DNA from: Pseudomonas kermanshahensis | GTDB taxonomy: Bacteria; Pseudomonadota; Gammaproteobacteria; Pseudomonadales; Pseudomonadaceae | Length of the DNA stretch: 64,000 nucleotides | Reading direction: 5' to 3' | NCBI RefSeq assembly: GCF_014269205.2 | Contig: NZ_JABWRY020000001.1 | Span: 1,984,001-2,048,000, forward strand | Shown: piece by piece, positions 26,624-55,890 of the stretch | Position numbering within the stretch: position 1 is the first letter of the stretch | Layout: each line of letters begins with the position of its first letter | The notes under the pieces: model-generated | What the model saw: the letters and a program-made list of their open reading frames with translations, nothing else | Databases searched by the model: none | Told to the model about the DNA's origin: nothing | Program-made: the position numbers and the translations under genes

Positions 26624-27496
26624 TCACGTCGCCTGTTGTGCAATCAACGCCAGGCACCGTTGCACGATCGGGCTCACATCGCCCTTGCGACGGCTTAGGA
26701 TGATCGGGCTGACGGCGCTGGTGTCCAGCAAGCTGACATACTCGATATCCGTGCGGTGCTGCTGTTGCACCGACGCCGGCACCAGGGTCACGCCGAGCCC
26801 GACGGCCACCAGGCCGATGGCCGTTTGCAGTTCGTTGGCCCACTGGCTGATCTTCAGGGTCATGCCGTGGTGGGCGAACAGGGCCAGCACATGGTCGGCA
26901 TAGCTGGGCCTGGGGTTGGCCGGGTACAGAATGAACGGCTCCTTGGCCAGTTGCGCGAGGGTCAGCGGGGTGCCTGCCAACGGGTGGCCCTTGGGCAATA
27001 CCGCGACCAAGGGGTCTTCGCACAGCACCTGCTGGAGGATGGCCGGGTCATCGATACGAATACGGCCGAAGGCGATGTCGATGCGGCCACTCTTGAGTGC
27101 CTCGACCTGCTGCAGCGTGGTCATTTCGCTCAACCCCAGTTCCAGCTCGTTGTCCTGGCGCAGTTCGCGGATCAGCGCTGGCAGCACGGTGTACAAGGTC
27201 GAGGGAGCAAAACCGATGCCCAGCCATTGGCGTTGCCCGTGGCCGATGCGGCGGGTGTTGTCGCTGATGTTTTCCAGTTGCTGGAGCAGGGTGCAGGTCT
27301 GTTCATAGAAGAACCGCCCGGCTTCGGTCAGGCGCAGCGGGCGCTCACGCAGCACCAGCAGCGTGCCGAGCTGCTCCTCGAGCTGGCTGATCTGCCGGCT
27401 TAGCGGCGGCTGGGCGATATGCAGCAGCTCAGCGGCACGGGTGAAGTTCAGCGTTTCGGCCAGCACCTTGAAGTAGCGAAGGTGGCGCAGTTCCAT
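26624..27496 (-). CDS. catR: LysR-family activator of catechol genes, CatR
   Basis: A 290-residue LysR regulator divergent from catBCA. The N-terminal winged helix reads [20 protein letters not shown], then [20 protein letters not shown], which is the CatR/BenM/ClcR subgroup signature. The effector domain would bind cis,cis-muconate, the CatA product, and activate catBCA, as known for P. putida CatR. The start at 27496 is 135 bp from the catB start, and the intergenic region contains the expected dyad. No odd features. Confidence 0.93.
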
Positions 27497-27499
27497 CAG

Positions 27500-27515
27500 A
27501 CCTCCAGGGTATGGT
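27500..27515 (+). promoter_or_regulatory. Candidate CatR recognition dyad between catR and catB
   Basis: An ACC-N10-GGT dyad next to the catR start, in the sequence ACCTCCAGGGTATGGT. It has the position and appearance of the upstream high-affinity CatR site of P. putida catBCA, which both represses catR and activates catB. The activation half would lie closer to catB, within about 27530-27600. Confidence 0.6.
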
Positions 27516-27631
27516 GGGAGATTCATTTGATATTGGACGGGTATCAGGGTCTCGCGCAATGCTTGATCAAACAAGTAAGTGCAACTATCGGGTCTGCCAT
27601 CTGCGGTCCGATCTGACGGGACCTGGCAACA

Positions 27632-28753
27632 ATGACAAACACCCTGATTGAACGTATAGATGCAATTATCGTCGACCTGCCGACCATTCGCCCGCACAAG
27701 CTGGCCATGCACACTATGCAGCAGCAAACCCTGGTGGTATTGCGCGTGCGTTGCAGCGACGGCGTCGAAGGTATCGGCGAGGCAACCACCATCGGTGGCC
27801 TGGCCTACGGCTACGAAAGCCCCGAGGGCATCAAGGCCAATATCGACGCACACTTGGCACCGGCGCTGATCGGCCTGCCGGCTGACAACATCAACGCCGC
27901 CATGCTCAAGCTGGACAAGCTGGCCAAGGGCAACACCTTTGCTAAGTCGGGGCTCGAAAGCGCCTTGCTCGATGCCCAGGGCAAGCGCCTGGGCCTGCCG
28001 GTCAGCGAACTGCTGGGCGGCCGAGTACGCGATAGCCTGGAAGTGGCCTGGACCCTGGCCAGTGGCGATACCGCCCGTGATATCGCCGAAGCCCAGCACA
28101 TGCTGGAGATCCGTCGCCACCGTGTGTTCAAGCTGAAGATCGGCGCCAACCCGGTGGAGCAGGACCTCAAGCACGTGGTGGCGATCAAGCGCGAGCTGGG
28201 TGACAGCGCCAGCGTGCGGGTCGACGTCAATCAGTACTGGGACGAGTCCCAGGCCCTGCGCGCCTGCCAGGTGCTCGGCGACAACGGAATCGACCTCATC
28301 GAACAGCCCATTTCGCGGATCAACCGCGGCGGCCAGGTGCGTCTCAATCAGCGCAGCCCAGCGCCGATCATGGCCGACGAATCGATCGAAAGCGTCGAAG
28401 ACGCCTTCAGCCTGGCCGCCGACGGTGCCGCCAGCATCTTTGCCCTGAAAATTGCCAAGAACGGCGGCCCACGTGCAGTGCTGCGCACAGCGCAAATCGC
28501 CGAAGCGGCCGGTATCGCCCTGTACGGCGGGACCATGCTTGAAGGCTCGATCGGCACCCTGGCTTCGGCCCACGCGTTCCTCACCTTGCGCCAGCTGACC
28601 TGGGGCACCGAGCTGTTCGGGCCGCTGCTGCTGACCGAAGAGATCGTCAACGAGCCGCCGCAGTACCACGACTTCCAGCTGCACATTCCACGCACGCCAG
28701 GCCTTGGCCTGACCCTGGACGAGCAGCGCCTGGCGCGCTTCGCCCGCCGCTGA
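27632..28753 (+). CDS. catB: Muconate cycloisomerase
   Basis: A 373-residue enolase-superfamily enzyme that converts cis,cis-muconate to muconolactone. The catalytic lysine pair is in VFKLKIGANP, the metal-binding acids are in VRVDVNQYWDE, IEQPISR and IMADESIES, and the second catalytic lysine is in ALKIAKNGG. The N terminus contains PTIRPHKLAMHTMQQQTLVV, typical of CatB. It opens catBCA, divergent from catR. Downstream catC follows after 32 bp. Confidence 0.95.
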   Translation: MTNTLIERIDAIIVDLPTIRPHKLAMHTMQQQTLVVLRVRCSDGVEGIGEATTIGGLAYGYESPEGIKANIDAHLAPALIGLPADNINAAMLKLDKLAKGNTFAKSGLESALLDAQGKRLGLPVSELLGGRVRDSLEVAWTLASGDTARDIAEAQHMLEIRRHRVFKLKIGANPVEQDLKHVVAIKRELGDSASVRVDVNQYWDESQALRACQVLGDNGIDLIEQPISRINRGGQVRLNQRSPAPIMADESIESVEDAFSLAADGAASIFALKIAKNGGPRAVLRTAQIAEAAGIALYGGTMLEGSIGTLASAHAFLTLRQLTWGTELFGPLLLTEEIVNEPPQYHDFQLHIPRTPGLGLTLDEQRLARFARR

Positions 28754-28785: not shown

Positions 28786-29076
28786 ATGCTGTTCCACGTG
28801 AAGATGACCGTGAAACTGCCGGTCGACATGGACCCGGCCAAGGCCGCCAAGCTCAAGGCCGATGAAAAGGAACTGGCCCAGCGCCTTCAACAAGAAGGTA
28901 CCTGGCGCCACCTGTGGCGCATTGCCGGGCACTACGCCAACTACAGCGTGTTCGATGTGGCAAGCGTCGAGGCCCTGCACGACACCCTGATGCAACTGCC
29001 GCTGTTCCCGTACATGGAGATCGAGGTGGACGGCTTGTGCCGCCACCCGTCGTCGATCCACAGTGACGACCGCTGA
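28786..29076 (+). CDS. catC: Muconolactone delta-isomerase
   Basis: A 96-residue protein, exactly the usual CatC size. It isomerises muconolactone to beta-ketoadipate enol-lactone and forms a large ring oligomer in known structures. It begins MLFHVKMTVKLPVDMDP and ends with MEIEVDGLCRHPSSIHSDDR, both diagnostic. AAGGAG precedes its ATG. It lies between catB and catA in the order catB-catC-catA that is standard for P. putida. Confidence 0.95.
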   Translation: MLFHVKMTVKLPVDMDPAKAAKLKADEKELAQRLQQEGTWRHLWRIAGHYANYSVFDVASVEALHDTLMQLPLFPYMEIEVDGLCRHPSSIHSDDR

Positions 29077-29119: not shown

Positions 29120-30055
29120 ATGACCGTGAAAATTTCCCACACTGCCGAGATCCAGTCGTTTTTTGAAGAAGTCGCAGGCCTTGGGCACGCCGAGGGTAAC
29201 CCGCGCTTCAAACAGATCATCCTGCGCGTGCTGCAGGACACTGCCCGCCTGATCGAAGACCTTGAAGTGAGCGAGGACGAGTTCTGGCATGCCGTCGACT
29301 ACCTCAACCGCCTGGGCGGCCGTAACGAGGCGGGCCTGCTGGCAGCGGGCCTGGGGATCGAGCACTTCATCGACCTGCTGCAAGACGCCAAGGATGCCGA
29401 AGCGGGCTTGACCGGCGGTACCCCGCGCACCATCGAGGGCCCGCTGTACGTTGCAGGCGCGCCGCTTAGCCAAGGTGAAGCACGCATGGACGATGGCACC
29501 GACCCCGGCGTAGTGATGTTCCTTCAGGGCCAGGTATTCGGCGCCGACGGCAAGCCGCTGGCAGGCGCTACCGTCGACCTCTGGCACGCCAACACCCAGG
29601 GCACCTATTCGTACTTCGATTCGACCCAGTCCGAGTACAACCTGCGCCGACGCATCATCACTGACGCAGAGGGCCGCTACCGCGCCCGCTCCATCGTGCC
29701 GTCCGGTTATGGTTGCGACCCGCAGGGGCCAACTCAGGAGTGCCTGGACTTGCTTGGCCGCCACGGCCAGCGCCCGGCGCACGTGCATTTCTTCATCTCC
29801 GCGCCGGGGCATCGCCACCTGACCACGCAGATCAACTTCGCCGGTGACCAATACCTGTGGGATGACTTTGCCTATGCCACCCGTGATGGGCTGATCGGTG
29901 ACCTGCGCTTTGTCGAGGATGCGGCGGCGGCGCATGATCGGGGCGTGCAAGGGGAGCGTTTCGCCGAGTTGGCCTTCGACTTCACGTTGCAGGCTGCGCA
30001 GGCGCCTGAGGCTGAAACCCGCAGCCATCGACCGCGTGCTTTGCAAGACGGCTAA
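29120..30055 (+). CDS. catA: Catechol 1,2-dioxygenase
   Basis: A 311-residue intradiol dioxygenase that opens catechol to cis,cis-muconate with a non-haem Fe(III). Iron ligands are visible as tyrosine in the GTYSYFD / YRARSIVPSGYGCDP regions and histidines in RPAHVHFFISAPGHRHL. The N-terminal helical dimerisation domain (about 1-110) is complete. It is the last gene of catBCA and is followed by a hairpin with a T-run. In this window it receives catechol produced by the indole-3-acetate cluster about 9 kb downstream. Confidence 0.95.
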   Translation: MTVKISHTAEIQSFFEEVAGLGHAEGNPRFKQIILRVLQDTARLIEDLEVSEDEFWHAVDYLNRLGGRNEAGLLAAGLGIEHFIDLLQDAKDAEAGLTGGTPRTIEGPLYVAGAPLSQGEARMDDGTDPGVVMFLQGQVFGADGKPLAGATVDLWHANTQGTYSYFDSTQSEYNLRRRIITDAEGRYRARSIVPSGYGCDPQGPTQECLDLLGRHGQRPAHVHFFISAPGHRHLTTQINFAGDQYLWDDFAYATRDGLIGDLRFVEDAAAAHDRGVQGERFAELAFDFTLQAAQAPEAETRSHRPRALQDG

Positions 30056-30673: not shown

Positions 30674-32032
30674 TCAGGCCGCGACGGGGTGCTCACGCTG
30701 CATGCTGTGTCGGAAGCACTTGCAGCCTTTGGCCAGCAACACGATGGCCAGCAACGACGCGACGAAGCTGACAATCGACATCGAAGAACCGACCGCAGCC
30801 GGTACACCGAAGTAGCGGTCGGTGATCAGCGCCACCAGCGTGGTGCCCAAGCCCAGGCCCAGCAGGTTACTGATCAGCAGGAATACCGCCGATACCTGCG
30901 CACGCACCTGGTTCGGCGAGAGGATCTGCATGGCCGCAGTGGACGCCGGCATGGGGAACGAGGCGAAGAACATGGCCGGTACCAGCAGGGTCACCGACAG
31001 CCACAGTTGGTCCACCTGCGAATACAGCACGGCCGGCACGATCATGCCCAGCGCACCGATTACCCCGGTACGCATGGCTGCATCGCTGCGGCCGCGCTTG
31101 GCCAGGTGGTCGGTCAGCCAACCGCCGAACACCACACCCGTGGTGTTGGCCAGCAGCAGGATGGTGCCGAGCATGAAGCCGGCTTGCTCGGGGCTCATGC
31201 CGAACTTGCGGATGTACAGCGCCGGTGTCCAGCTCATCATGCAGAACAGCGCCATGGCGTAGAACGAGAAGCCCAGGTAGTGGCAGCTGAACGTGGCCCG
31301 GTGACGGCCGATGAAGCGCAGGCCGTCGGTGAGCTTCACCTTGCGCACATTACCGTCGGCGTCCAGCTGCGCGCCCTTGCGCTCGGGGTTGCGCACGGTC
31401 AGCCAGATCAGCAGGCCCACGATCACCCCAGGCAGGCCGACGATGAAGAACGCCAGTTGCCAGGCCTTCATGGCGCCAAGGAAGGCCACCTCGATGGTCT
31501 GTGCGTCCTTGAGCAAGGTGATCACGTAGCCGCCGACCAGAAAGGCAATGCCGCCACCGACGAACGACCCGATGGAGTAGATGCCCACTGCGCGGCCGAG
31601 CTTTTCCTTGGGGAACAGGTCGCTGAACATCGAGTAGGCCGAAGGCGACAGGGCCGCTTCGCCGACGCCCACGCCGATACGGGCAAGGAACATCTGCGTG
31701 AAGTTCTTGCTCAGGCCGCAGGCGGCGGTGGCGAAGCTCCAGAAAATCACCCCGACCGCGATGATGCGTGGCCGCGAAAAGCGGTCGGCCAGGTAGGCGA
31801 TGGGCATGCCCATGAAGGCGTAGAACAGCGAAAACGCCAGGCCGTGCAGCAGGCTGAACTGGGTGTCGCTCAGCTGCAGGTCGGCTTTTATCGGCTCGAT
31901 CATCAGGGCCAGAATCTGCCGGTCAACGAAGGAGAAGATGTAGGCCACCATGCACAGGATGACCACATACCATTCGTACACGTAACGTTTTTGGGTGTGC
32001 TTGAGGTGTTGCGCTTCGGTCAGGGTATTCAT
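30674..32032 (-). CDS. MFS transporter (spinster-like/ anion-symporter type)
   Basis: A 452-residue major-facilitator protein with 12 predicted helices. It begins after MNTLTEAQHLKHTQKRYVYE and has YIFSFVDRQILALMIEPIKA, PIAYLADRFSRPRI (loop 2-3 signature) and ARIGVGVGEAALSPSAYSMF, typical of the spinster-like family often found with aromatic or sugar-acid catabolism. The ATG at 32032 is chosen; an extended form has no better context. It is the distal gene of a leftward run (oxygenase, reductase, OprD, MHS transporter, this one). It probably carries the organic acid used by that run; the substrate is unknown. Confidence 0.85.
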   Translation of the reverse strand: MNTLTEAQHLKHTQKRYVYEWYVVILCMVAYIFSFVDRQILALMIEPIKADLQLSDTQFSLLHGLAFSLFYAFMGMPIAYLADRFSRPRIIAVGVIFWSFATAACGLSKNFTQMFLARIGVGVGEAALSPSAYSMFSDLFPKEKLGRAVGIYSIGSFVGGGIAFLVGGYVITLLKDAQTIEVAFLGAMKAWQLAFFIVGLPGVIVGLLIWLTVRNPERKGAQLDADGNVRKVKLTDGLRFIGRHRATFSCHYLGFSFYAMALFCMMSWTPALYIRKFGMSPEQAGFMLGTILLLANTTGVVFGGWLTDHLAKRGRSDAAMRTGVIGALGMIVPAVLYSQVDQLWLSVTLLVPAMFFASFPMPASTAAMQILSPNQVRAQVSAVFLLISNLLGLGLGTTLVALITDRYFGVPAAVGSSMSIVSFVASLLAIVLLAKGCKCFRHSMQREHPVAA

Positions 32033-32126: not shown

Positions 32127-33434
32127 TCAGTTATTGTCTGCAGAGGCTTGTGGCTTGATGGAAATCACCGCCAGGGTGGTGATCGCGCCCATCACCACGA
32201 GCATCACCGACACCGGCCAGGCATCCTTGTAAATGCTGAACAGTGCCGTCGCCGCCAGTGGCGCCAGGCCGCCGGAGAAGATCGAGGCAATCTCGTGCCC
32301 CATGGCCAGCCCCGAATAGCGCACCTTGGCCGGGAACAGCTCACCCATCAGCGCCGGCTGGGTGCCGATCATCGCGCCGTGACAGAAGGCCATGCCCAGC
32401 AACGCCGCCAGGTACACCCACACCGGTGAGTGGGTATCGAGCATCCAGAAGAACGGGAACGCCAGCACCATCAAACCGACCGAGCCGATGGCATACACCA
32501 CCCGCCGGCCAATGATGTCCGACAGCCAACCCCAGAACACGATGGTGCCGGCCTCGACGATCATCGCCACCATCACGCTGGCCAGCACCAGTTGCGTATC
32601 CAGGCCGGTGAACTTGGCGTAGGCGATGGTGAAGGCGAGGAACAGGTAGGCGCTGCCGTTTTCGGCAATGCGGATACCCATGGCCTGCAGCACGGCCTTG
32701 GGGTGGTTGCGCAGCACTTCCATGGCCGGCATGTGCTCGGGCTTGTCCTGCTGGGCCTGTTCCTCGACGAAGGCTTTGCTCTCTGGGAGGCGACGGCGGA
32801 TGTACACCCCTACGCCAAAGATCAGGATGCTGGCCAAAAATGGCACCCGCCAGCCCCAGCTCATCATGTCTTCGACGGGCAGCATCTGCACCAGGTAGAA
32901 CGCAGCGGCAGACAGTACGAACCCGCCGGAAACACCCAGCTGGCTCCAGGCCGCATAGAAGCCGACGCGGTCCTTGGGTGCGTTCTCGCTCAGCAGCAGC
33001 ACGCCACCGCCCCATTCGCCGCCCGAGGCAACGCCTTGCAGCACGCGCAGGATCACCAGGCAGGCGGGGGCCAGGTAGCCGACCTGTTCGAAGGTTGGCA
33101 GCAGGCCCATGGCGAAGGTTGCCGCACCCATGATCGCCAGGGTCATCACCAAGGCCTTCTTGCGCCCGGCCTTGTCGCCGATATGGCCAAAGATCAGGCC
33201 ACCCAGCGGGCGTGCCAGAAAGCCCACGGCGAAACCGGCAAACGAGGCCATGGTGCCAAGCACCGGGTCGGTGCCGGCGGGGAAGAACAGCGGGGCGAAA
33301 ATCAGTGCTGCGGCCGTGCCGTAGAGGAAGAAGTCATACCATTCCAGGGCATTGCCCAGGACCGAGGCGATGACAATGCGGCGCATGGTGCGCGGGTCGG
33401 TATCGCGGGTGATGCTGGTGTTCAGGTTACTCAT
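32127..33434 (-). CDS. MFS transporter, metabolite:H+ symporter (MHS) family
   Basis: A 435-residue MHS-family symporter. Diagnostic segments are ASVLGNALEWYDFFLYGTAA near the N terminus, FLARPLGGLIFGHIGDKAGR with KKAL, and LLSENAPKDRVGFYAAWSQL. Twelve hydrophobic helices are evident. MHS members import shikimate, citrate, aromatic acids and betaines. It lies between an OprD-type porin (22 bp) and a second MFS gene (94 bp) on the same strand, forming an outer-plus-inner membrane uptake set for the neighbouring oxygenase operons. Indole-3-acetate is an attractive candidate substrate but this is inference. Confidence 0.88.
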   Translation of the reverse strand: MSNLNTSITRDTDPRTMRRIVIASVLGNALEWYDFFLYGTAAALIFAPLFFPAGTDPVLGTMASFAGFAVGFLARPLGGLIFGHIGDKAGRKKALVMTLAIMGAATFAMGLLPTFEQVGYLAPACLVILRVLQGVASGGEWGGGVLLLSENAPKDRVGFYAAWSQLGVSGGFVLSAAAFYLVQMLPVEDMMSWGWRVPFLASILIFGVGVYIRRRLPESKAFVEEQAQQDKPEHMPAMEVLRNHPKAVLQAMGIRIAENGSAYLFLAFTIAYAKFTGLDTQLVLASVMVAMIVEAGTIVFWGWLSDIIGRRVVYAIGSVGLMVLAFPFFWMLDTHSPVWVYLAALLGMAFCHGAMIGTQPALMGELFPAKVRYSGLAMGHEIASIFSGGLAPLAATALFSIYKDAWPVSVMLVVMGAITTLAVISIKPQASADNN

Positions 33435-33456: not shown

Positions 33457-34701
33457 TCACCAGAACTTCCAGGTGTAGGAAGTGATCAGGCGATACTCGT
33501 TGTAGTCGTTGCCGTACTGCTGTTGGGTACGCATGTTCTTCAGGTCGAAGGCCAGGTCCTTGAGCGGGCCGCTCTGGATCACGTAGCTGAGCATGATGTC
33601 GCGCTCGCTTTCCTGGTCCCTTGCAAGGCCCGGGCCGCGGTCGATGTCGGTGCCTTTGATGTAGCGGGTGAACAGCTTCAGCCCGGGCAGCCCCATGGCG
33701 GCGAAGTTGTAGCCATAACGCACCGACCAGCTGCGTTCATCCGGGCGAATGAACGGCAGGCCCGCCCAGTTCGGCAGCCACAGCTGCGGCACGTAGCCGT
33801 TCAACGTCGGGAACACGGTATCGCCGGTCATGCGCTGGTAGCTCAGGCCCAGCATGTGCCCGCTTTTTTCCAGGGTGACCAGGCCGAAGTAGGCGCGGTT
33901 GTCCACGGCGCCGCTGCGTGCGGCGCCGTCTTCACGGTTGTTGAAGTACCCCACGTCGGTTTTCAACTGGTAGCCGTCGGCGAACTTCAGGGCGTGCTTG
34001 ATGCCGCCGTAGTCCTGCTTGTAGATGTCGTTGAGCACACCATGGAAGTAACTGGCTTGCAGGTCTGGGGTCAGGGCGTAGGTGGCGCCGGCGAAGTCCA
34101 GGCCATCACTGTCCTGGTCGTCGCGGGTGCCGTAGCGGTAGAGGCGCTCATGGTTGGACGACTCGCGGGTGACGATGGACCAGAAGCGCCCGCCAACGAG
34201 GGTCAGGTTGTCGATGTCGCGTGATTCGATCACCGCGCCCTGGTAAATCGTGTCGAGCTGCCGGCTGGGGTCGTTGGAGGCGACGGGGTAGAAAGGTTTC
34301 TGATCGCCGATCAGTACCTTGGTGTTGGCGTACTTGAGCTTCAGGGTCGCACCGCCGCGGCTGTAGTCGTCGGCGGCCTGCTGGCGGTGCTTGCTGAAGG
34401 GCAGCGAGCCATCGTTGCCGGTGGAGTCCAGGCGCACGGCGTATTGGCCGTTGAGGTCGAGACCGACCGCCACGGGGGTATCGGTGTAACCGGATTCGAA
34501 CTGCAGGTCGAAGCCCTGCGACCAGTTGCCGACCTTGGACACCGGCGCGCTGGGGTTGGTGAAGTTACGGTTCAGGTAGAGGTTTCTGAAATTGAGCGAG
34601 AGGTGGCTGTCATCCACCACATCGGCCAAGCACATCAGGGGTAATACGGCGCCCACACACAAGCAAAACGGTTTCGCACGCAACGGCCATTTGAGTTCCA
34701 T
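33457..34701 (-). CDS. OprD-family outer-membrane porin
   Basis: A 414-residue porin with an N-terminal signal (MELKWPLRAKPFCLCVGAVL, cleavage near LA-DVVDD). The mature protein is an alternating amphipathic beta pattern with the OprD starts LSLNFRNLYLNRNFT and GWSQGFDL-like strand 2, and ends SYTWKFW with a terminal aromatic, as needed for barrel assembly. OprD-family channels admit specific small carboxylates such as benzoate or vanillate. It is encoded with two MFS carriers downstream and an oxygenase reductase upstream, so it should pass the aromatic or carboxylate substrate of that cluster. Confidence 0.9.
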   Translation of the reverse strand: MELKWPLRAKPFCLCVGAVLPLMCLADVVDDSHLSLNFRNLYLNRNFTNPSAPVSKVGNWSQGFDLQFESGYTDTPVAVGLDLNGQYAVRLDSTGNDGSLPFSKHRQQAADDYSRGGATLKLKYANTKVLIGDQKPFYPVASNDPSRQLDTIYQGAVIESRDIDNLTLVGGRFWSIVTRESSNHERLYRYGTRDDQDSDGLDFAGATYALTPDLQASYFHGVLNDIYKQDYGGIKHALKFADGYQLKTDVGYFNNREDGAARSGAVDNRAYFGLVTLEKSGHMLGLSYQRMTGDTVFPTLNGYVPQLWLPNWAGLPFIRPDERSWSVRYGYNFAAMGLPGLKLFTRYIKGTDIDRGPGLARDQESERDIMLSYVIQSGPLKDLAFDLKNMRTQQQYGNDYNEYRLITSYTWKFW

Positions 34702-38709: not shown

Positions 38710-39043
38710 GACCTCGACCTCGGGAGTAATCACGGCAGGCATTGGCGTGTCCCCATCCATCCTGGTGGGGCGTTGGCTTGTTTTTTTTGTGTGCTCGGCG
38801 TGGGTGGCCGGCGTTGTCGCGCTCCATGCCAGGCCATCGTACACGCGTTTTTTTCTGTCCGAAATCATGTGAAAAAGGCGCTAAAAATTTTTCGTGATAT
38901 CGGCGCGGGTCGTTAGTTTTTTTAGGCGCGTTGAAACCGGTTTTTGAAGTCGTATAAATCCATTTAAATCATGTAGATAGCCAATTTTTAGAGGGTTTAT
39001 CCGTTAGGTATAGGTAAATTTTTCTCCTGTTTTAGCGTGAAAA

Positions 39044-44333: not shown

Positions 44334-44344
44334 GGAGCATGACC

Positions 44345-46861: not shown

Positions 46862-47374
46862 ATGACCGATATCCTCGAACTCCAGGCCCGCCTGCGCAGC
46901 TTTGAACACCAGCAGGCCATCCGCGTCTGCATCAACCGCTACATGGCGTTGTGCGACCAACTGGACGCGCGATCCCCGCTCGATGAACTGGCGCAGCTGT
47001 TTTGCCGTGATGCGGTGTGGGAGGGCAAGGGCGCCAAGTACGCCGAGAGTTTTGGCGGCTACCGCGGGCGCGAAGCGATCCGGGCGATGTTCGCCACCTA
47101 CATGAAGACCCCGGCGCATTTCGCCTTGAATGTGCACTTTCTGACCAGTGAGGTTATCGAGGTGGCCGGTGAGGAAGGGCTGGGGCGCTGGGTGATGTTG
47201 CAGACCAGTACCTTTGCCGACGGCGCCTCACACCTCAATGCTGCCCGGCTGACCGTGCGCTTTGCGCTGGAAGAGGGCCAGTGGCGCATGGCGCATTTCC
47301 AGACCGAGAACCTGTTCAGCCGGCCAGTGACGGCGTGGAACAGCGACGCGCCGTTGCCGGTGCCAGAGCGGTAG
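46862..47374 (+). CDS. iacI: SnoaL-like protein IacI
   Basis: A 170-residue NTF2/SnoaL-fold protein (RVCINRYMALCDQLDARSPL, FCRDAVWEGKGAKYAESFGG and the C-terminal strand with FALEEGQWRMAHFQTENLFS). It lies 13 bp after iacH and ends the rightward iac genes. The fold is shared by isomerases, dehydratases and oxygenase small subunits. In known clusters IacI is present and of uncertain function. Confidence 0.85.
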   Translation: MTDILELQARLRSFEHQQAIRVCINRYMALCDQLDARSPLDELAQLFCRDAVWEGKGAKYAESFGGYRGREAIRAMFATYMKTPAHFALNVHFLTSEVIEVAGEEGLGRWVMLQTSTFADGASHLNAARLTVRFALEEGQWRMAHFQTENLFSRPVTAWNSDAPLPVPER

Positions 47375-48918: not shown

Positions 48919-49317
48919 TTACTTGAGGCCGGCGAGGAAACACGTCACCGACTGGCGTTCGCCCGCGTCCGGCAACCCTGCATAAGGCATGTAGGTGCCG
49001 GGTACTGCCGCCTGTGGCTGGGCAATGAAGGCGCCGATGCTTTGCGCCGTCCAGGCCGCCTGGCGGGTTTTCATGGCCTGAGAGTAATTGGCCCCTGGCA
49101 CGGTACCGGGGGTACGGCCCACCACGTCGTGCAGGTTGGGGCCCATCATCACTGGGCCATCCTTTTGCGCCGAATGGCACGCCGCGCAGTCGCGCGCAAA
49201 CACCTGTTCGCCCTGTTGGCGCTGCGGGGCTGCGCAGTCTTCGGCCAGGGCCAGCGGGCTGGCCAGCGCGGCGAGCAGGAAGGGCATTACGAACTTGCTG
49301 GATACGACGGTCGACAT
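48919..49317 (-). CDS. Periplasmic monohaem c-type cytochrome
   Basis: A 132-residue cytochrome c with a signal peptide (MSTVVSSKFVMPFLLAALAS, cleavage near ALA-ED) and one haem site CAACH. A distal Met ligand is likely in TYMPYAGLPD or nearby. ATG 49317 has AGGAA upstream. It follows the FeaR-like regulator on the same strand and has its own terminator. It may accept electrons from the TTQ amine dehydrogenase encoded nearby and pass them to the oxidase; this is inferred from location. Confidence 0.85.
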   Translation of the reverse strand: MSTVVSSKFVMPFLLAALASPLALAEDCAAPQRQQGEQVFARDCAACHSAQKDGPVMMGPNLHDVVGRTPGTVPGANYSQAMKTRQAAWTAQSIGAFIAQPQAAVPGTYMPYAGLPDAGERQSVTCFLAGLK

Positions 49318-49435: not shown

Positions 49436-50350
49436 TCAGTTGGCGTGACGCTTGCGGTACTCGCCTGGGGTCATGCCAAACCGGCCTTTGAATGCGGTGC
49501 TGAAATAACTCGAATCGGAAAAACCCCAGGCATACCCCAGCGACGACACCTTCTGATCCATCGACGGATTGCGCAGGCTTTCGGCGCAGAAGTCGAGGCG
49601 ACGGTTGCGGATGTACTGGGCGATGACCAAGTCGTGCTTGGCGAAGATGCGGTACAGGCTGCGCATGGAGATGCCCACTTCGCGGGCAATGAACTCAGGT
49701 GTCAGGCTTTCGCAGGTGATGCGCTGGTCAATCAGTGCCAGGGCCTTGCGGAACATGCGCTCGTGGCTGCCGGGCACCGAGTCCTGGGTGATGGCGGGGC
49801 GCAGCAAGGCGATCAGCGCCTCCAGTACCGCCTGGCTTTCGTTGTTGGCCATGTGCTGGGTGCGGCCGGCTTCGAGCATCATCTGGCGGGCCATGCTGGC
49901 CAACGGGGTTTGCGCTTCGATGCGTTTGGCGCAGGCCACGCTGACGCCGCGGGTGCCGCTTTCGACCTGAGTGCGCGGCAAAATCAGCGACAACTGGCGC
50001 GAGCGCTGGTGGAAGTGCATGTCCAGCGGGGCACTGGCGTCGATCAGTGTGAGGTCGCCGGGCCGCAGTTCGATGCGTGCATCCTGGTGCTCGATATGCG
50101 AGGTGCCGGCCATCTGCAAGACTGCATAGTAGTTGTCGGCACCGCTGGCGCGTATTTCCCGCGGGCCGCGGAACAGGTTGACGTGGGTCATGTCGACGAT
50201 GCTCATGGAAATCTGGCCTACCTGGCACTTTTCGAGCTGGCCGACGAAGCCTGCGTCGAGCTTGCGGGCGTTGAAGTGGCCGCAGGCATCGTTGACCTGG
50301 CTGAGCCAGGCCTGGAAGTGATCGTCGGTAACACAGGTTGCTGGTGTCAT
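49436..50350 (-). CDS. AraC-family regulator, FeaR-like
   Basis: A 304-residue AraC/XylS regulator similar in length and sequence to FeaR, which activates phenylethylamine/tyramine oxidation in E. coli. The N-terminal cupin-like sensor (about 1-190) starts HFQAWLSQVNDACGHFNARK; the C-terminal double helix-turn-helix has FIAREVGISMRSLYRIFAKH, then VIAQYIRNRRLDFCAESLRN and GFSDSSYFSTAFKGRFGMTP. It lies next to the aromatic amine dehydrogenase operon and probably activates it and the divergent aldehyde dehydrogenase. Its promoter is overlapped by copy 3 of the 21-bp iac motif. Confidence 0.87.
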   Translation of the reverse strand: MTPATCVTDDHFQAWLSQVNDACGHFNARKLDAGFVGQLEKCQVGQISMSIVDMTHVNLFRGPREIRASGADNYYAVLQMAGTSHIEHQDARIELRPGDLTLIDASAPLDMHFHQRSRQLSLILPRTQVESGTRGVSVACAKRIEAQTPLASMARQMMLEAGRTQHMANNESQAVLEALIALLRPAITQDSVPGSHERMFRKALALIDQRITCESLTPEFIAREVGISMRSLYRIFAKHDLVIAQYIRNRRLDFCAESLRNPSMDQKVSSLGYAWGFSDSSYFSTAFKGRFGMTPGEYRKRHAN

Positions 50351-50793: not shown

Positions 50794-51312
50794 TCAGTGG
50801 CCAAGCCCATCGCTGATGGGAATGCCCTTGGCCTGCATCGCTTCGATCAACCCGGCGCGCACATGCGGCAGGTTGAGCATGCTGTTCTGACGTACCCGAT
50901 GCACTTCCTCGCCGCTGTACGCCGGCCATTGTTCGGGTGAGCTGTTGCCGGCCATCCCGTCCCGCGCCAGCAGCCAATTAAGCAAATCGGCAATCTGCTG
51001 ATCATTAAGCGCCGACTGGGAGATCCCCGGCACCCGCACGAGAAACTCGCGCCCGCCCGGCACCCGCAGGAAGTTGCCGACAAACCCCTGCATGCGCGGC
51101 GTGTCGTTGGCCGCCGAGCCTTCGCCGTTGTCGCGGTGGCAGCCGGCGCATTGCAACTGATAATTCACCGGCACCGAATAACCGGCCTGGGCAATCGGCA
51201 CCGGTGGCACCTCGTTGCCCGGCGCCGGGCGCTGGTTGGGGTTGGGCAGGGTCCTGGCCTGGGCGACAGGCGCCAGCAGGCACAGGATCAACACCGCGGT
51301 CAGGGCCTTCAC
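50794..51312 (-). CDS. Monohaem c-type cytochrome of aromatic amine dehydrogenase operon
   Basis: A 172-residue cytochrome c starting with GTG at 51312 (MKALTAVLILCLLAPVAQA as signal). One haem site CAGCH lies at about residue 55; Met ligands are possible in PRMQGFVG or NSMLNLPH. The gene begins 4 bp after the TTQ subunit stop, so it is co-translated. It is a natural candidate for electron acceptor of the dehydrogenase in place of azurin, none of which is seen here. It has a single haem and is too short to be the dihaem MauG needed for TTQ maturation. Confidence 0.85.
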   Translation of the reverse strand: MKALTAVLILCLLAPVAQARTLPNPNQRPAPGNEVPPVPIAQAGYSVPVNYQLQCAGCHRDNGEGSAANDTPRMQGFVGNFLRVPGGREFLVRVPGISQSALNDQQIADLLNWLLARDGMAGNSSPEQWPAYSGEEVHRVRQNSMLNLPHVRAGLIEAMQAKGIPISDGLGH

Positions 51313-51316: not shown

Positions 51317-51838
51317 CTAGACCGCCACACCGCGGATGATGGTAACGGTGCAGTTGTAGATCTTCGACTCAGCCCCGAGGCACCAGTTGATGTCGTTGTT
51401 GTTGAACGGGCGATACAAGGGTTGTTCATCGTCGTTGCGCGAGCAGGCGCACTGGCCGCACGCGTGCTTACCGCAGCAGTCGTTGTACGAGATGATGTAG
51501 TTCTTGCCATCGGCCGGGTTGCGGCAGGTGCCGATCCAGGTCACCAGCGAGGCATCGGTGCCGGGCGGGCAGGAGGTAATCGAACCGCCGCAGCACGAGC
51601 ACAGGAAGCCGTCGATCGAGCAGTTGCGCCAATAGTCACAGCTGGTCGGGTCACCTGGGTCGCCCATTTTCGGCTGCTCGGCGGCCAGCGCCTTGGCGGT
51701 GCGGTCGATCGGCAACAGCACCGGCAGGGCCGCGCCGGCGACGATCAGCGAGCCCAGGCGCGCCAGCACCTTGCGCCGTGAGGTGGTGTCGGCGACATGA
51801 CGGCTGGAGCGTTCAAACAGTTTGTCGAGAAAACTCAT
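51317..51838 (-). CDS. aauA: Aromatic amine dehydrogenase beta (light) subunit, TTQ protein
   Basis: A 173-residue cysteine-rich periplasmic subunit holding tryptophan tryptophylquinone. Trp101 (VTWIGTC) and Trp152 (INWCLG) are 51 residues apart, the same spacing as Trp109/Trp160 of Alcaligenes faecalis AADH. The catalytic base and neighbour match by offset: Asp120 corresponds to Asp128, and Thr164 to Thr172. Fourteen cysteines fit the six-disulphide fold. The leader has a twin-arginine motif (TSRRKVLARLG) and a hydrophobic stretch. It oxidises aromatic primary amines such as tyramine, phenylethylamine or tryptamine to aldehydes and ammonia. Confidence 0.94.
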   Translation of the reverse strand: MSFLDKLFERSSRHVADTTSRRKVLARLGSLIVAGAALPVLLPIDRTAKALAAEQPKMGDPGDPTSCDYWRNCSIDGFLCSCCGGSITSCPPGTDASLVTWIGTCRNPADGKNYIISYNDCCGKHACGQCACSRNDDEQPLYRPFNNNDINWCLGAESKIYNCTVTIIRGVAV

Positions 51839-51852: not shown

Positions 51853-52494
51853 TCAGTGTTGCGCGCTGTGTGGGTGGGCATGGTCATGGTCGTGAGCATG
51901 GCCGTGCGCGTGGTTGCCGTGCAGGTACTGCTGCAGGCTCGCGCTGCCCAGGTGCACGGTCTCGAACAGGCTGTCGAGGTGCTCGCGGGAGTTGACCAGG
52001 CCCTTGGCGCGCAGGGTGCCGGCCTGGTCGATCAACACGGCGTACGGCAGCTTGCCAATCTGGTAGGTCATGCCGATCTCGGGGCCGACCACATAGGTGG
52101 CTTGCTGCAAGTCGTTGGCGTCGATCAGGGCCTGCTGTTCGGCAAAATCACCGTCGCTGACATAGATCACGTCCAGCTCGCCGCTGTTGTCCTTGGCAAT
52201 CGACTTGACCGCCGGCAGCAGCGATTTGCACACCGGGCAGCCGGGCGCGAGGAAGAACAGCAGTTGCGAGCGTTCGCTGCGGTAGCCGATGTTTACCGGG
52301 CGGCCATGACGGTCGGCGGCGGTGACCTGTGGGGCGGGGTCGTTGACCGTCACGCCTTTGTCTACCATCAGCGCACCGGCAGGCGCGATGCGGCCATGCA
52401 GCACGCCGATCTGGCGCACCAGGGCCATGACCGTGAACGCCACCGCGATCAGCAGCAGCCAGAGCAAAATGTTCGATGCGATAAGCAGTTGCAT
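51853..52494 (-). CDS. aauD: MauD/AauD-like thioredoxin-fold maturation protein
   Basis: A 213-residue protein anchored by an N-terminal helix (about 5-27) with a periplasmic thioredoxin-like domain. The redox pair is Cys86-Pro-Val-Cys89 in FFLAPGCPVCKSLLP. MauD-type proteins help form the many disulphides of the TTQ subunit. A histidine-rich tail (HGNHAHGHAHDHDHAHPH) ends the protein and could bind metal. It lies between aauE and aauA, 14 bp before the latter. Confidence 0.9.
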   Translation of the reverse strand: MQLLIASNILLWLLLIAVAFTVMALVRQIGVLHGRIAPAGALMVDKGVTVNDPAPQVTAADRHGRPVNIGYRSERSQLLFFLAPGCPVCKSLLPAVKSIAKDNSGELDVIYVSDGDFAEQQALIDANDLQQATYVVGPEIGMTYQIGKLPYAVLIDQAGTLRAKGLVNSREHLDSLFETVHLGSASLQQYLHGNHAHGHAHDHDHAHPHSAQH

Positions 52495-52497
52495 GGG

Positions 52498-53034
52498 TTA
52501 TCTCCCAGTCAATTTGGCAAGACGCGGCTGGTTGGCCAGCAGGCCATCCACCGCCACATGAATCAGCAGCGCCACGGCACTGGCCGCAATCACCACGAAA
52601 ATATCCAGGGCACCGAGTGCACGCTCGGCCATGGGCAGCGCCGCCAGGCCGGCCAACAGGGCGATCACCAGGTTGCGCAGCAACAGCACTGGGCGCAGTG
52701 GCTGGGCAGCGCCGGGGCCTGAACAGCCGCAATCGATGTCGCGGCGGCCACGCCACAGGTTGATGCCGATGGCGCTGGCATACAGCGCCATCAACAGCAC
52801 CACCGCCAACGCCGCGCTGGCTCGCCCACCGGGTAGCAGCAAGGCCAGCGCCAGGGCCAGTTCGGCCAGTGCAAGGCTTGCCGTGGCTACCGGTGCCAGG
52901 GGTGCTGGCAGCAGTTGGTAGTCGCGCACGATGGCGCTGAACGCGCGCAGGTCACGTAGCTTGTGGCTGGCGGCACTGGCCAGCAGCGTCGCCAAAGCGG
53001 TACTGCTGGCAATCACGAGAACAGGGTCGAGCAT
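52498..53034 (-). CDS. aauE: MauE/AauE-like membrane maturation protein
   Basis: A 178-residue inner-membrane protein with four to five helices (DoxX/MauE fold). A cysteine pair lies in RDIDCGCSGPG, typical of MauE and suggestive of a disulphide-relay role with AauD. It is between aauB and aauD, with a 3-bp gap before aauD. MauE is essential for making the TTQ subunit in methylamine utilisers. Confidence 0.9.
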   Translation of the reverse strand: MLDPVLVIASSTALATLLASAASHKLRDLRAFSAIVRDYQLLPAPLAPVATASLALAELALALALLLPGGRASAALAVVLLMALYASAIGINLWRGRRDIDCGCSGPGAAQPLRPVLLLRNLVIALLAGLAALPMAERALGALDIFVVIAASAVALLIHVAVDGLLANQPRLAKLTGR

Positions 53035-53049: not shown

Positions 53050-54201
53050 TTACCAAGGGGCCAAGGTGAGCACGGGCGTGTCGGCGATCTGGTCCATGGC
53101 ACCGCTGTGCTTGCCGGTGGCCAGGTCGAAGAACTGCACGCCGCCTTCCAGGTCAGTGGCCACCAGAATGGGCGCCTTGTCATGGCTGGCCTGCAGGCTC
53201 CAGACTGGCTTGGGCGAGTCGAGCGTGCCGAGCTTCTTGCCCGTCTTCAGGTCGAACGCCCAGATGGTGGTGCTCGGGTCTTCCCATTTGCCATCGGTGT
53301 GCTGGTCATGCATCAGCGCATACAGCCGGTTCAGGCCTGGCGCCAAGGCCAGGGCTTGCCAGCCACCCGGCGCCCAGCCTTGCTTGCGTTCCTCGTCGCT
53401 GACCAGCGACCAGGTGGGCTGCGGCTTGGCCTTGCCCCCTTCGAAACTCACCGGGTACACCTCGCCATGGGTGGTGGTGAAATAGTAGGTGTCGCCGTTG
53501 GCGATGGCGCGCTCGTTGAGGCGGACCTTGTTCGGGTCGAAGAACGGCGTCTGGGTGCGCGAGACTTCCTTGCCGTCATCATCCAGTGTCACCACCAGCA
53601 GTTGGCCGTCACCGCACAGTGACGCGAAGCTGCGTTTGCCGACTGGGTAGTTGAGTACGCAGCCGCTGATGGCGACTTCGCTGGCGACCGTGTGCGTCTG
53701 AGTATTGACCACGGTCACCGATGTCGACGGCGTCAGGTTGAAGACATATGCCAGCTTGCTGTCGGCGCTGACGCCCATCGCGTACTTCTCGGTGAGCGTG
53801 GAGGCGCGCTTGGCGGGCAGTACCACTTCCCATTGCGGGCGCAGGGTCTGGGTGTCCCACGCCACCAGTACGTCGGTGCGTTCGCCGTAGGTGCCACGCG
53901 AGTAGAACAGGTTGGCCGAGTACAGGGTGCGGTTGTCTGGGCTCAGCGCCGTTGGGGCGACGAAGGCGTTGGTGGTCATGCCGAGCATGCGCTTGGCCTT
54001 GGGGTCGACCACCACCACCTTGCCGGCGATGGGGTTCTTGAAGTCCACATCGAGGATGTAGACACGGTGAGGGTCCGGCGGGAACGGCAGGGTGTTCTGG
54101 CCGATCTCTTCGGCGGGCAGGTCGGCCCGCACCGCGCTTGTGCTCGCAGCCAGGGCCAAGGCCAGGGCTGCCGAGATGCTAAGCCTGTCTACGCGACGCA
54201 T
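53050..54201 (-). CDS. aauB: Aromatic amine dehydrogenase alpha (heavy) subunit
   Basis: A 383-residue periplasmic beta-propeller subunit with Sec signal (MRRVDRLSISAALALALAAS, cleavage near VRA-DLP). Propeller-type stretches include RVYILDVDFKNPIAGKVVVV, TLYSANLFYSRGTYGERTDV and VWAFDLKTGKKLGTLDSPK-like repeats. It matches MauB/AauB, which packs against two TTQ subunits in an alpha2beta2 enzyme. It heads aauBEDA-cytochrome, the same gene order as the Alcaligenes faecalis aau cluster. It is divergent from an aldehyde dehydrogenase 201 bp away. Confidence 0.92.
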   Translation of the reverse strand: MRRVDRLSISAALALALAASTSAVRADLPAEEIGQNTLPFPPDPHRVYILDVDFKNPIAGKVVVVDPKAKRMLGMTTNAFVAPTALSPDNRTLYSANLFYSRGTYGERTDVLVAWDTQTLRPQWEVVLPAKRASTLTEKYAMGVSADSKLAYVFNLTPSTSVTVVNTQTHTVASEVAISGCVLNYPVGKRSFASLCGDGQLLVVTLDDDGKEVSRTQTPFFDPNKVRLNERAIANGDTYYFTTTHGEVYPVSFEGGKAKPQPTWSLVSDEERKQGWAPGGWQALALAPGLNRLYALMHDQHTDGKWEDPSTTIWAFDLKTGKKLGTLDSPKPVWSLQASHDKAPILVATDLEGGVQFFDLATGKHSGAMDQIADTPVLTLAPW

Positions 54202-54236
54202 TGGCTATCTCCGATGTTGTTATGGGTTATGCAGAT

Positions 54237-54254
54237 ATCGCAGTGATCGCAGTG
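54237..54254. promoter_or_regulatory. Perfect 9-bp tandem direct repeat between aauB and aldehyde dehydrogenase
   Basis: ATCGCAGTG occurs twice back to back in the divergent intergenic region (54202-54402). AraC-type regulators often bind direct repeats, so this is a candidate site for the FeaR-like protein, controlling both aauB and the aldehyde dehydrogenase. Spacing of only 9 bp is shorter than usual for AraC half-sites. Confidence 0.35.
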
Positions 54255-54402
54255 TGCCGCCTGGGCCGGCGTGGTGATTTGGCCAGCGTGACATTCTCTT
54301 GAGGCTCCCTGACAAAACGCCGGTCGGGGCTGGCAGGCGGGTAGGCGGGGGCCTGAAGATCGGCCCGCACACACTTTTGCGCTGCCTTCCAGGAGTCATG
54401 TC

Positions 54403-55890
54403 ATGAGCGATATCCAACTGTTACCTGCCGTGGTCGAGTTCCTCGCCAGGCCCCATGGCCATTTCATCGAGGGCCAATACCAGGCGGGTGAGGCGTGGCC
54501 GTCAGTCGATATCCACGACCCCTCCAGCGGCACGGTCATCAGCCGGGTTGCCGAGGCCAGCGAGGTGGAAGTAGCACGTGCGGTGCTCAGTGCCCGGCAG
54601 GCCTTCAAGGGCAGTTGGGCTGAGGTTTCCCCCTATCAGAAAGGCGTGGTGCTCAACCGCTTGGCTGACCTGATCGAGGCCAATGCCGAAGAGCTGGCAC
54701 AGCTCGAGACCCTGTGTTCCGGCAAGTCGATCAACCTCTCGCGGGGGTTGGAGATCGCTCAAAGTGTAGTCTTCCTGCGTTATTTCGCGGGTTGGGCGAC
54801 CAAGATCACTGGGCAGACCATGACCCCGTCGCTGCCTTCATTCGGTGGCGAGCGCTACACCGCCTTTACCCTGCGTGAGCCGGTGGGCGTGGTCGCGGGG
54901 ATCGTGCCGTGGAATTTCTCGGTGATGATCGGTATCTGGAAGATCGCCTCTGCCTTGGTCACCGGTTGCACCATCGTGATCAAACCCAGCGAATTCACGC
55001 CGCTGACGCTGCTGCGCATCGCCGAACTGGCGGTCGAGGCAGGGGTGCCGGCGGGGGTGTTCAACGTGGTTAATGGGCGCGGGCAGGCGGGCCAGCTGTT
55101 GATTGAGCACCCGCTCGTGGCCAAGGTCGCGTTCACAGGCTCGGTGCCGACCGGTATCGCCGTCGGCAAGGCCGCGATGGCGGCCAACCTGACCCGCGCC
55201 ACGCTGGAGCTGGGGGGCAAGAACCCGGCAGCGTTGTTGGCCGATGTGGACGTGGACGGCGCCGTGGCAGGCATCCTGCAGACGGCCTTCGTGCACCAGG
55301 GGCAAGTGTGCGCTTCGCCGGAGCGGGTGTATGTGCACCGCAGCAAGGTTCAGGAATTTACCCGCAAGCTGGGTGAAGCGCTGGGGCAGTTGAAGATTGG
55401 TTCGGCGCTCGACCCCGACGCCCAGTTCGGCCCTTTGGCCAATGCTGCGCACCTGCAGAAGATTCTCGGCTTCTTCGAGCGTGCCCGGGCCAGTAACACG
55501 GTGGTCTGTGGGGCGAAGGCGCTTGATCGGCCGGGCTACTTCGTCGAGCCTACGGTGGTGCTGGCCAATGACCCCAGTGACCCGTTGCTGCACGAGGAAA
55601 CGTTCGGCCCGATCGTCTGTGTGCTGCCGTTCGACGATGAAGAGCAGTTGCTGGCGTTGATGAACGATAGCCCCTATGGCCTGACCGCCAGCCTGTGGAC
55701 CAACGACCTGTCCAAGGCGCTGCGGCTGATCCCGCAGATCGAAGCGGGCACGGTGTGGGTCAACATGCACACCTTCCTCGACCCGGCGGTGCCGTTTGGT
55801 GGGTCGAAGGCATCCGGGGTAGGGCGTGAGTTTGGCAGTGCGTTCATCGAGGATTACACCGAACTGAAATCGGTGATGATCAGGTACTGA
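54403..55890 (+). CDS. NAD-dependent aldehyde dehydrogenase (phenylacetaldehyde/indole-acetaldehyde type)
   Basis: A 495-residue aldehyde dehydrogenase close to FeaB/StyD phenylacetaldehyde dehydrogenases. Motifs are VAGIVPWNFSVMIGIWKIAS, VTGCTIVIKPSEFTPLTLLR, the glutamate motif ATLELGGKNPAALL, the catalytic cysteine in HQGQVCASPERVYVH, and PFGGSKASGVGREFG. It is divergent from aauB. It should oxidise the aldehydes made by the amine dehydrogenase: indole-3-acetaldehyde to indole-3-acetate for the neighbouring iac genes, or phenylacetaldehyde and its 4-hydroxy form. The specific choice is inferred from context. Confidence 0.9.
   Translation: MSDIQLLPAVVEFLARPHGHFIEGQYQAGEAWPSVDIHDPSSGTVISRVAEASEVEVARAVLSARQAFKGSWAEVSPYQKGVVLNRLADLIEANAEELAQLETLCSGKSINLSRGLEIAQSVVFLRYFAGWATKITGQTMTPSLPSFGGERYTAFTLREPVGVVAGIVPWNFSVMIGIWKIASALVTGCTIVIKPSEFTPLTLLRIAELAVEAGVPAGVFNVVNGRGQAGQLLIEHPLVAKVAFTGSVPTGIAVGKAAMAANLTRATLELGGKNPAALLADVDVDGAVAGILQTAFVHQGQVCASPERVYVHRSKVQEFTRKLGEALGQLKIGSALDPDAQFGPLANAAHLQKILGFFERARASNTVVCGAKALDRPGYFVEPTVVLANDPSDPLLHEETFGPIVCVLPFDDEEQLLALMNDSPYGLTASLWTNDLSKALRLIPQIEAGTVWVNMHTFLDPAVPFGGSKASGVGREFGSAFIEDYTELKSVMIRY

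Follow-up and report, generated by a model that had tools for sequence, protein, structure and literature searches.

The 64,000-nucleotide window of Pseudomonas kermanshahensis analyzed here (contig NZ_JABWRY020000001.1, positions 1,984,001 to 2,048,000) contains a catabolic stretch at 26,624–55,890, ~29.3 kb when all of catR is counted. Gathered in it, as a first-pass annotation made from the sequence alone had described, are genes for a tryptophan tryptophylquinone (TTQ) amine dehydrogenase (aauBEDA), a divergent aldehyde dehydrogenase, the indole-3-acetate genes iacABCDEFG, iacR and iacHI, and catRBCA. It is probable that this island is a catabolic system for aromatic amines, tryptamine above all, leading into the beta-ketoadipate pathway. 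The complete set of iacA–I with its MarR regulator is present, and the catechol ortho-cleavage enzymes CatA, CatB, and CatC all score above their NCBIfam cut-offs. From left to right, the order is catR (−), catBCA (+), two major facilitator superfamily (MFS) genes (−), oprD (−), iacF2-D2-C2 (−), a LysR gene (−), iacABCDEFG (+), iacR (−), iacHI (+), porin2 (−), cyc1 (−), feaR (−), cyc2-aauA-D-E-B (−), and the aldehyde dehydrogenase gene (+).

In the proposed route, porin2 would admit the amine to the periplasm, where AauAB would deaminate tryptamine to indole-3-acetaldehyde and pass the electrons to cytochromes c (cyc1 and cyc2), with cyc1 a likely acceptor. The aldehyde dehydrogenase would then form indole-3-acetate in the cytoplasm; IacA/G, IacE/B, IacCDF, and perhaps IacI would carry this to catechol; and CatA, CatB, and CatC would open the ring. 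FeaR would turn on porin2, cyc1, and aau when amine is present, while the appearance of indole-3-acetate would relieve repression of the iac operon by the MarR protein IacR. The second iacCDF set, with a LysR, OprD, and MFS gene of its own, could either boost the dioxygenase step or import a late intermediate from outside. The last two of these five steps rest on published work on close homologs, from which their function here may be presumed; the first three, like the regulatory wiring, are predicted from sequence, and a function in tryptamine use is likely. Near-identity to the P. putida 1290 proteins suggests that the iac genes of the window take indole-3-acetate to catechol.

The portion available of one biochemical study reports that IacA oxidizes indole-3-acetate and that IacE yields dioxindole-3-acetate, describes the subsequent steps to catechol as unresolved, and attributes a SnoaL-fold domain to the IacI of C. 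glathei (PMC7225977). According to the same portion, P. putida 1290 is said to grow on indole-3-acetaldehyde, and C. glathei IacA does not oxidize tryptamine (PMC7225977). Tryptamine must therefore first be deaminated, which fits the need for Aau and an aldehyde dehydrogenase upstream of iac.

Linkage of aau and iac in Pseudomonas and beyond

The first-pass annotation had proposed a genome search for co-occurrence of aau and iac, and the pairing proves to be recurrent in Pseudomonas. In a sample of 298 Pseudomonas genomes, AauB (counted at an identity of at least 55%) was found in 39, IacC (E <= 1e-100) in 60, and paaA in 78; AauB matches of ~30% identity, the sole matches in 10 of 49 positive genomes, were left out before counting. 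Genomes with aau carried iac in 37 of 39 cases, against 23 of the 259 without aau (odds ratio 190, Fisher P 6e-29). In 26 of the 39 genomes the two shared a contig at a distance of no more than 25 kb, 5 of them with a classical iac (two of these at 22 kb) and 21 with a divergent one. This divergent iac, which accounts for most linked cases, has the order A-B-I-H-C-D-E-F, with IacC ~64% and IacA 51–56% identical to the proteins of the window. Of the 298 genomes, 23 have it; each of these also has aau, and it is absent from all 259 genomes without aau.

At the level of individual loci (the named AauB loci are the best 80 of 332), iac lay within 10 kb in 38, 4 classical and 34 divergent, with one locus (L098) scored as linked on four iac genes only; 3 more carried iacR alone. 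The classical arrangements among these best 80 belong to P. capeferrum WCS358, P. putida W15Oct28, P. entomophila WZ006, and Pseudomonas sp. BGr12, and the same linkage is found in P. putida 1290 (G245). Pseudomonas sp. Root71 (L124) has a divergent iac beside aau. Its nearest relatives place the window genome in the P. putida group: its AauB is 97% identical to that of WCS358. IacA is 98% identical in 1290 and WCS358 and 96% in W15Oct28. In a quick AauB tree, the window group forms one supported clade of 10 rows (5 linked to classical iac, 2 unlinked, and 3 with short flanks), separate from the rows linked to divergent iac. The sister group, P. nitroreducens and kin, has no iac within 10 kb; within the window clade itself, P. 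faucium and P. ceruminis have retained aau together with the aldehyde dehydrogenase gene, but their flanks lack feaR, cyc1, porin2, and iac. We read this as aau and iac having been joined at least twice independently in Pseudomonas, on a tree that cannot separate gains from losses. Two side observations concern other aau and iac arrangements. Pseudomonas composti LY1 carries two aau loci (L100, L117), one of them beside iacR-like (66%) and aldehyde dehydrogenase-like (71%) genes. In a rearranged iac locus (L158, genome G188), the two iacC copies point the same way (for one, the match covers 360 of 424 residues), iacG is split in two, and iacA is nearly absent.

Outside the genus, linkage is rare. 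The one case found is plasmid pNL2 of Novosphingobium aromaticivorans DSM 12444 (L062, 4,184–26,944), which unites iac, aau, and cat in ~23 kb. Matches were found there to iacG, E, B, A, I, D, C, and H, with none to iacF, alongside an aldehyde dehydrogenase, an AraC regulator, a cytochrome c, aauBEDA, CoA-transferase subunits, pcaF, pcaD, a LysR gene, and catBCA. The three modules are thus those of the window, but gene order differs, AauB and IacC are only 31% and 64% identical, a TonB receptor stands where the window has a porin, and pNL2 has extra beta-ketoadipate genes. This region also adjoins two tyrosine-type recombinase genes. Elsewhere, TTQ matches were found in 10 of 274 genomes of a class sample and 13 of 398 of a phylum sample, the window's own genome being in both; 20 TTQ places were fetched, omitting G372 (over the methylamine cut-off), G821 and G850 (weak fragments), and G113 (same genus). 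Stray matches to short-chain dehydrogenase/reductase, amidase, or reductase proteins numbered at most two per place. Conversely, aau is absent from the flanks of the iac loci on plasmids of Acinetobacter, Klebsiella, and Azospirillum (L152–L154), and plasmid pMTS1 of Cupriavidus sp. P-10 (L155) carries a divergent-like iac operon with 52–83% identity to the divergent proteins (IacC 83%). The rule that divergent iac always comes with aau, true of the 298 Pseudomonas genomes, fails in general given this Cupriavidus operon.

Enzyme identities, FeaR-type boxes, and the second iacCDF set

The closest solved relatives place the Aau enzyme among TTQ dehydrogenases. AauB scores 161.8 bits against aromatic amine dehydrogenase 2h3x and, among the matches listed, at best 126.4 against a methylamine dehydrogenase, whereas AauA matches a methylamine dehydrogenase chain (164 bits) and aromatic amine dehydrogenase (158.8) about equally. 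Aligned with 2agl_D, AauA keeps the Trp of WIGTC, the Trp of NWC, and the Asp of YNDCCG; we take these to be the TTQ tryptophans and the catalytic residue, common to methylamine dehydrogenase as well. The Aau subunits fall below the methylamine dehydrogenase equivalog cut-offs (174.2 against 196.85 for TIGR02659; 157.7 against 454.45 for TIGR02658). Aau is probably a broad aromatic-amine enzyme, to judge from its tracking of the phenylacetate (paa) pathway across genomes, and would probably serve phenylethylamine too. A search of the whole genome for the MauG family (CCP_MauG, PF03150) gave 0 matches at E <= 0.001. Since a TTQ enzyme is nonetheless encoded, TTQ may be made without a MauG-family protein, and the one-heme cytochrome encoded beside aauA by cyc2, which follows aauA in nearly all Pseudomonas aau loci examined, is a candidate partner. 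No further mau-type genes were seen among the genes mapped around aauBEDA, the genome-wide search having been made for MauG only.

Two known systems invite comparison. The aau cluster of Alcaligenes faecalis that Chistoserdov reportedly described in 2001 has the order aauBEDA followed by a small cytochrome c, and no mauG, as in the window; we know of no iac or cat genes described alongside it, and the AauB of the window has clearly diverged (phmmer, 161.8 bits). The tynA-feaB-feaR system of E. coli, built on a copper amine oxidase, resembles the window in its FeaR-type regulator and phenylacetaldehyde-type dehydrogenase; in the window, a TTQ dehydrogenase with cytochrome c genes nearby takes the place of that oxidase. 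The aldehyde dehydrogenase of the window scores 553.1 bits against StyD, below the equivalog cut-off of 850; phenylacetaldehyde dehydrogenases are still the closest type, and arylacetaldehydes are the substrates expected of such an enzyme. In P. putida 1290, the corresponding gene (L043, 5,607–7,090) is matched in two overlapping pieces, its frame apparently broken in that assembly.

The FeaR box of E. coli is TGNCA-N8-AAA. This consensus has 11 matches in the window against 5.3 expected, a number reached in 2 of 100 shuffles. Three direct-repeat pairs have boxes spaced 21 bp apart with no more than one mismatch, and they precede porin2, cyc1, and aauB; when spacings of 14–31 were compared, a single further pair turned up at 26 and another at 30. 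Across 87 related loci (the 80 named and 7 divergent, many of them near copies), 31 pairs had the 21-bp spacing, 10 had 20 bp, and 4 had any other spacing; no 21-bp pair lay inside a mapped gene. On account of the three pairs in the window, porin2, cyc1, and aau look like one predicted FeaR regulon. A two-mismatch pair stands at 45,650, between iacR and iacH, and a lone box before iacA (39,050) recurs unchanged in WCS358, W15Oct28, G289, and P. entomophila; it has no partner and is not claimed as a site. FeaR control of the iac operon was considered and is unsupported, no qualifying pair having been found at iacA or iacH or in eight divergent loci; IacR should, on present predictions, act at both genes. 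As further observations on regulators, a histidine kinase gene separates aauB from iacA in one locus (L051), and LuxR and IacS regulators are noted in Pseudomonas iac operons in the part of a transcriptomic study available (PMC11630574).

The first-pass annotation did not list the second iacC-D-F unit (34,810–37,545, −) with its own LysR, OprD, and MFS genes, nor the cytochrome genes cyc1 and cyc2. The porins and MFS carriers that it did mention are borne out for two MFS genes and one OprD; the second porin-like gene is only a weak match, below cut-off. The iacCD stretch of the second set lies in inverted orientation and is 98% identical over 1,787 nt. Within genomes, iacC and iacC2 share 99.1% of their DNA in the window, 99.9% in WCS358, 98.5% in 1290, and 97.5% in G003, whereas iacC copies compared across these four genomes share 88.6–95.0%. 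The iacD pair is likewise close in three of them; that of 1290 (90.1%) is no closer than to other species. The iacF pair has diverged (72.5% in the window), and IacF2 is 92% identical to the window protein in WCS358, 88% in 1290, and 80% in G003. Because iacC copies are closer within than between genomes while iacF and iacF2 have diverged, the simplest reading would be an old duplication in which iacC, mostly together with iacD, has been repeatedly homogenized by gene conversion between inverted arms. P. plecoglossicida (L159) and P. faucium (L049) have LysR and OprD genes beside iacA and no iacCDF2. GC-rich repeats (72–93 nt, inverted copies among them) at 30,184–30,627 and 37,683–37,754 flank the MFS-oprD-iacCDF2 block.

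Weighing the proposed tryptamine route

Several observations weigh against the tryptamine reading. Because the sampled genomes are related, the P values overstate the evidence and its independence; physical adjacency and differing gene orders do not hinge on them. Two genomes with aau lack iac (G128 and G230), and in 11 more, iac was not seen within 25 kb (in 9 the two are on different contigs, and in 2 they are ~150–160 kb apart). Among the best 80 AauB loci, 39 have no iac in the flank (13 of these extend less than 10 kb on one side), and P. ceruminis, which shares the AauB clade of the window, carries aau but yielded not one IacC match. None of the 20 TTQ places outside the genus has an iac cluster nearby, with several of these stretches stopping early at contig ends; plasmid loci L063–L066 have no iac cluster near their TTQ genes; IacC and AauB are 328 kb apart on a plasmid of Novosphingobium EMRT-2; and the 19 kb seen around the Cupriavidus iac operon contain no aau. 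Neither iacA nor iacH of the window has a 21-bp FeaR pair with at most one mismatch upstream, and the 8 divergent-iac loci examined have no such pair anywhere. Lastly, 36 of the 39 aau genomes also have paaA, compared with 42 of the 259 that lack aau (odds ratio 62, P 3e-21), and in 9 of the 39 no more than 25 kb separates the two genes. As aau tracks paa in this way, tryptamine need not be the sole or main Aau substrate. Among genomes with iac, paa is present in 38 of 60, against 40 of 238 without.

The ties of aau to paaA support a different reading, in which Aau would serve mainly phenylethylamine (and tyramine), feeding a phenylacetate pathway encoded elsewhere, and the adjacency of iac would reflect a shared neighborhood of "plant aromatics" genes. 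Such a reading also agrees with the kinship of the aldehyde dehydrogenase to phenylacetaldehyde dehydrogenases, with the role of FeaR in E. coli as a phenylethylamine and tyramine regulator, and with the want of FeaR-type boxes at iac promoters. However, paaA is 649 kb away in the window genome and 518 kb away in G245, with iac adjacent to aau in both; linkage within 25 kb is commoner with iac than with paa (26 against 9 of 39); divergent iac never occurs without aau in the Pseudomonas sample; and the 28 kb seen of pNL2, where aau, iac, and cat are united, carry no annotated phenylacetate gene. Only two weak matches, below cut-off, were found in the window genome to HpaD, the 4-hydroxyphenylacetate ring-cleavage family. 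We consider this alternative unlikely. Of the route from tryptamine to the beta-ketoadipate pathway that the first-pass annotation had proposed, the gene families, the recurrent linkage of aau with two iac types, and pNL2 all speak in favor; the distribution of paa speaks against a role confined to tryptamine.

A more ambitious form of the tryptamine route would have aau and iac as a recurrently assembled, selected tryptamine-to-catechol system, with the divergent iac of Pseudomonas specialized for tryptamine-derived auxin and the iacCDF2-LysR-OprD-MFS block a second entry that takes up products of plant auxin breakdown (dioxindole-3-acetate or oxindole-3-acetate) and passes them straight to the dioxygenase, its iacCD being held identical to the main copy by gene conversion. 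The odds for such a selected system are lowered by the Cupriavidus plasmid, and the combination as a whole is offered tentatively, as a possibility that is more doubtful than not.

It is very unlikely that the island instead produces auxin from tryptamine for signaling, with iac merely setting the level: auxin is known to be formed from tryptamine, a PLP-dependent group II decarboxylase far from the island (G000:C1:3592844-3593941) might make tryptamine or related amines, and indole-3-acetate production by 1290 has been noted (PMC6624763), but consumption is indicated by the complete iac operon, the additional iacCDF, and catBCA, all within one stretch. Least credible is a methylamine dehydrogenase without any tie to auxin breakdown, as the genome note on 1290 implies in listing methylamine use among island functions (PMC6624763), and to which the top solved match of the light chain might lend color; it is rejected on the missed cut-offs of both subunits, the similarity of the heavy chain to aromatic amine dehydrogenase, and the lack of a MauG-family match or of further mau-type genes among those mapped around aauBEDA.

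Gene inventory and proposed place in auxin metabolism

Genes were called from NCBIfam and Pfam profile matches and from sequence comparison with PDB proteins (Table 1). The catR ortholog adjoins catBCA in L044, L047, L160, and L161 as well. No NCBIfam or Pfam family matched iacB, and no NCBIfam family matched iacI. Beyond the island, the aldehyde dehydrogenase gene is followed by one for a PAS-GGDEF-EAL protein (56,077–58,176), with a same-side ortholog in L067, L070, and L071; upstream lie genes for a 5-guanidino-2-oxopentanoate decarboxylase (11,283–12,890) and, at 25,123–26,643, a D-serine ammonia-lyase adjoining an amino acid permease.

Table 1. Genes of the catabolic stretch in window coordinates; scores are in bits
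Gene and product	Position	Strand	Evidence
catR, LysR regulator of catechol genes	26624..27496	-	LysR domains; C-terminal end of 712-aa minus-strand ORF
catB, muconate cycloisomerase	27632..28753	+	TIGR02534 523.9 (cut-off 334.95)
catC, muconolactone isomerase	28786..29076	+	TIGR03221 153.7 (cut-off 130.6)
catA, catechol 1,2-dioxygenase	29120..30055	+	TIGR02439 489.3 (cut-off 392)
mfs1, MFS transporter	30674..32032	-	PF07690
mfs2, MFS transporter, metabolite:H+ symporter type	32127..33434	-	TIGR00883 399.9, below cut-off 443.45
oprD, OprD-family porin	33457..34701	-	PF03573 2.8e-120
iacF2, reductase of second dioxygenase set	34810..35769	-	72.5% DNA identity to iacF
iacD2, dioxygenase small subunit	35780..36265	-	97.9% DNA identity to iacD
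iacC2, dioxygenase large subunit	36271..37545	-	99.1% DNA identity to iacC
LysR regulator adjoining iacCDF2 unit	37792..38868	-	PF00126 and PF03466
iacA, flavin-dependent monooxygenase (acyl-CoA dehydrogenase fold), ATG at 39223	39223..40398	+	HsaA-like; IacA relatives in L042 (1290), L156 (WCS358), L044 (W15Oct28)
iacB	40416..40778	+	Conserved position; 95-98% identity in L042, L044, L047, L049
iacC, Rieske dioxygenase large subunit	40794..42068	+	Relatives in 60/298 Pseudomonas genomes
iacD, dioxygenase small subunit	42074..42559	+	Profile match
iacE, short-chain dehydrogenase	42570..43322	+	Profile match
iacF, ferredoxin reductase-type protein	43374..44333	+	Profile match
iacG, flavin reductase	44339..44842	+	PF01613; RutF/HpaC-like, below those cut-offs
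iacR, MarR regulator	45070..45549	-	Near-identical to solved MarR protein 7kua over 154 residues
iacH, amidase family	45724..46848	+	Profile match
iacI, small protein	46862..47374	+	Position; 87-93% identity in L042, L044, L047, L067
porin2, outer-membrane porin-like gene	47417..48736	-	Weak PF13372, below cut-off; FeaR-type box pair 48817-48853 upstream
cyc1, cytochrome c	48919..49317	-	PF00034; CycA c550-like, below cut-off; FeaR-type box pair 49402-49438 upstream
feaR, AraC-family regulator	49436..50350	-	NF007243 387 (cut-off 199)
cyc2, single-CxxCH cytochrome c, directly after aauA	50794..51300	-	One CAGCH motif in translation
aauA, TTQ light chain	51317..51838	-	Aligns with aromatic amine dehydrogenase light chain 2agl_D
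aauD, MauD-type	51853..52494	-	TIGR02661 213.8 (cut-off 188.6)
aauE, MauE-type membrane protein	52498..53034	-	No NCBIfam match; position and conservation in relatives
aauB, heavy chain	53050..54201	-	Best solved relative 2h3x; FeaR-type box pair 54278-54314 upstream
Aldehyde dehydrogenase, phenylacetaldehyde-dehydrogenase type	54403..55890	+	Best solved relatives 4o5h, 4qyj

The first-pass annotation knew of no description of aau and iac in one locus, but their co-location is already in print for P. putida 1290, where a genome note reports the iacCDF duplicate, catRBCA nearby, and an island of ~30 kb that combines iac with genes for "methylamine" and "phenylacetaldehyde" use (PMC6624763). The G245 genome has iac, the duplicate, the porin, cyc1, feaR, aau, and the aldehyde dehydrogenase in the same order as the window, at 85–99% protein identity; the placement of catRBCA upstream is taken from the published account and lies outside the stretch compared. 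Given the same block in G245, the "methylamine" and "phenylacetaldehyde" genes are almost certainly aau and the aldehyde dehydrogenase. That account neither names these genes nor joins them into one route, printing them as separate functions rather than as the upstream part of a pathway, and it makes no mention of gene conversion; it likens an MFS gene to IacT1, implicated in the transport of a pathway intermediate (PMC6624763). The gene so termed is probably mfs2, whose ortholog in 1290 is 97% identical. The literature searched, outside which most subscription papers fall, contains among the matches listed no account joining the island genes into one tryptamine route, and none of aau–iac recurrence, a FeaR regulon, or iac gene conversion. 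The advance is thus the reading of aau, the aldehyde dehydrogenase, iac, and cat as one tryptamine pathway, a composite of known modules.

Auxin-destroying bacteria shape root growth, and the auxin-degradation studies consulted take indole-3-acetate as the entry point. In the part available of one such study, an indole-3-acetate degrader also named Root71 was among five strains examined by RNA-seq; its catechol genes rose with indole-3-acetate, and iac/iad clusters are reported as up (PMC11630574). The terms "amine dehydrogenase" and "tryptamine" have 0 occurrences in the main text of that study and of PMC9613470. If aau feeds iac, many pseudomonads would also remove tryptamine, itself an auxin precursor and bioactive amine, and would gain energy from its oxidation outside the cytoplasm. 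If true, this would also put right the "methylamine" reading of P. putida 1290, the strain studied most.

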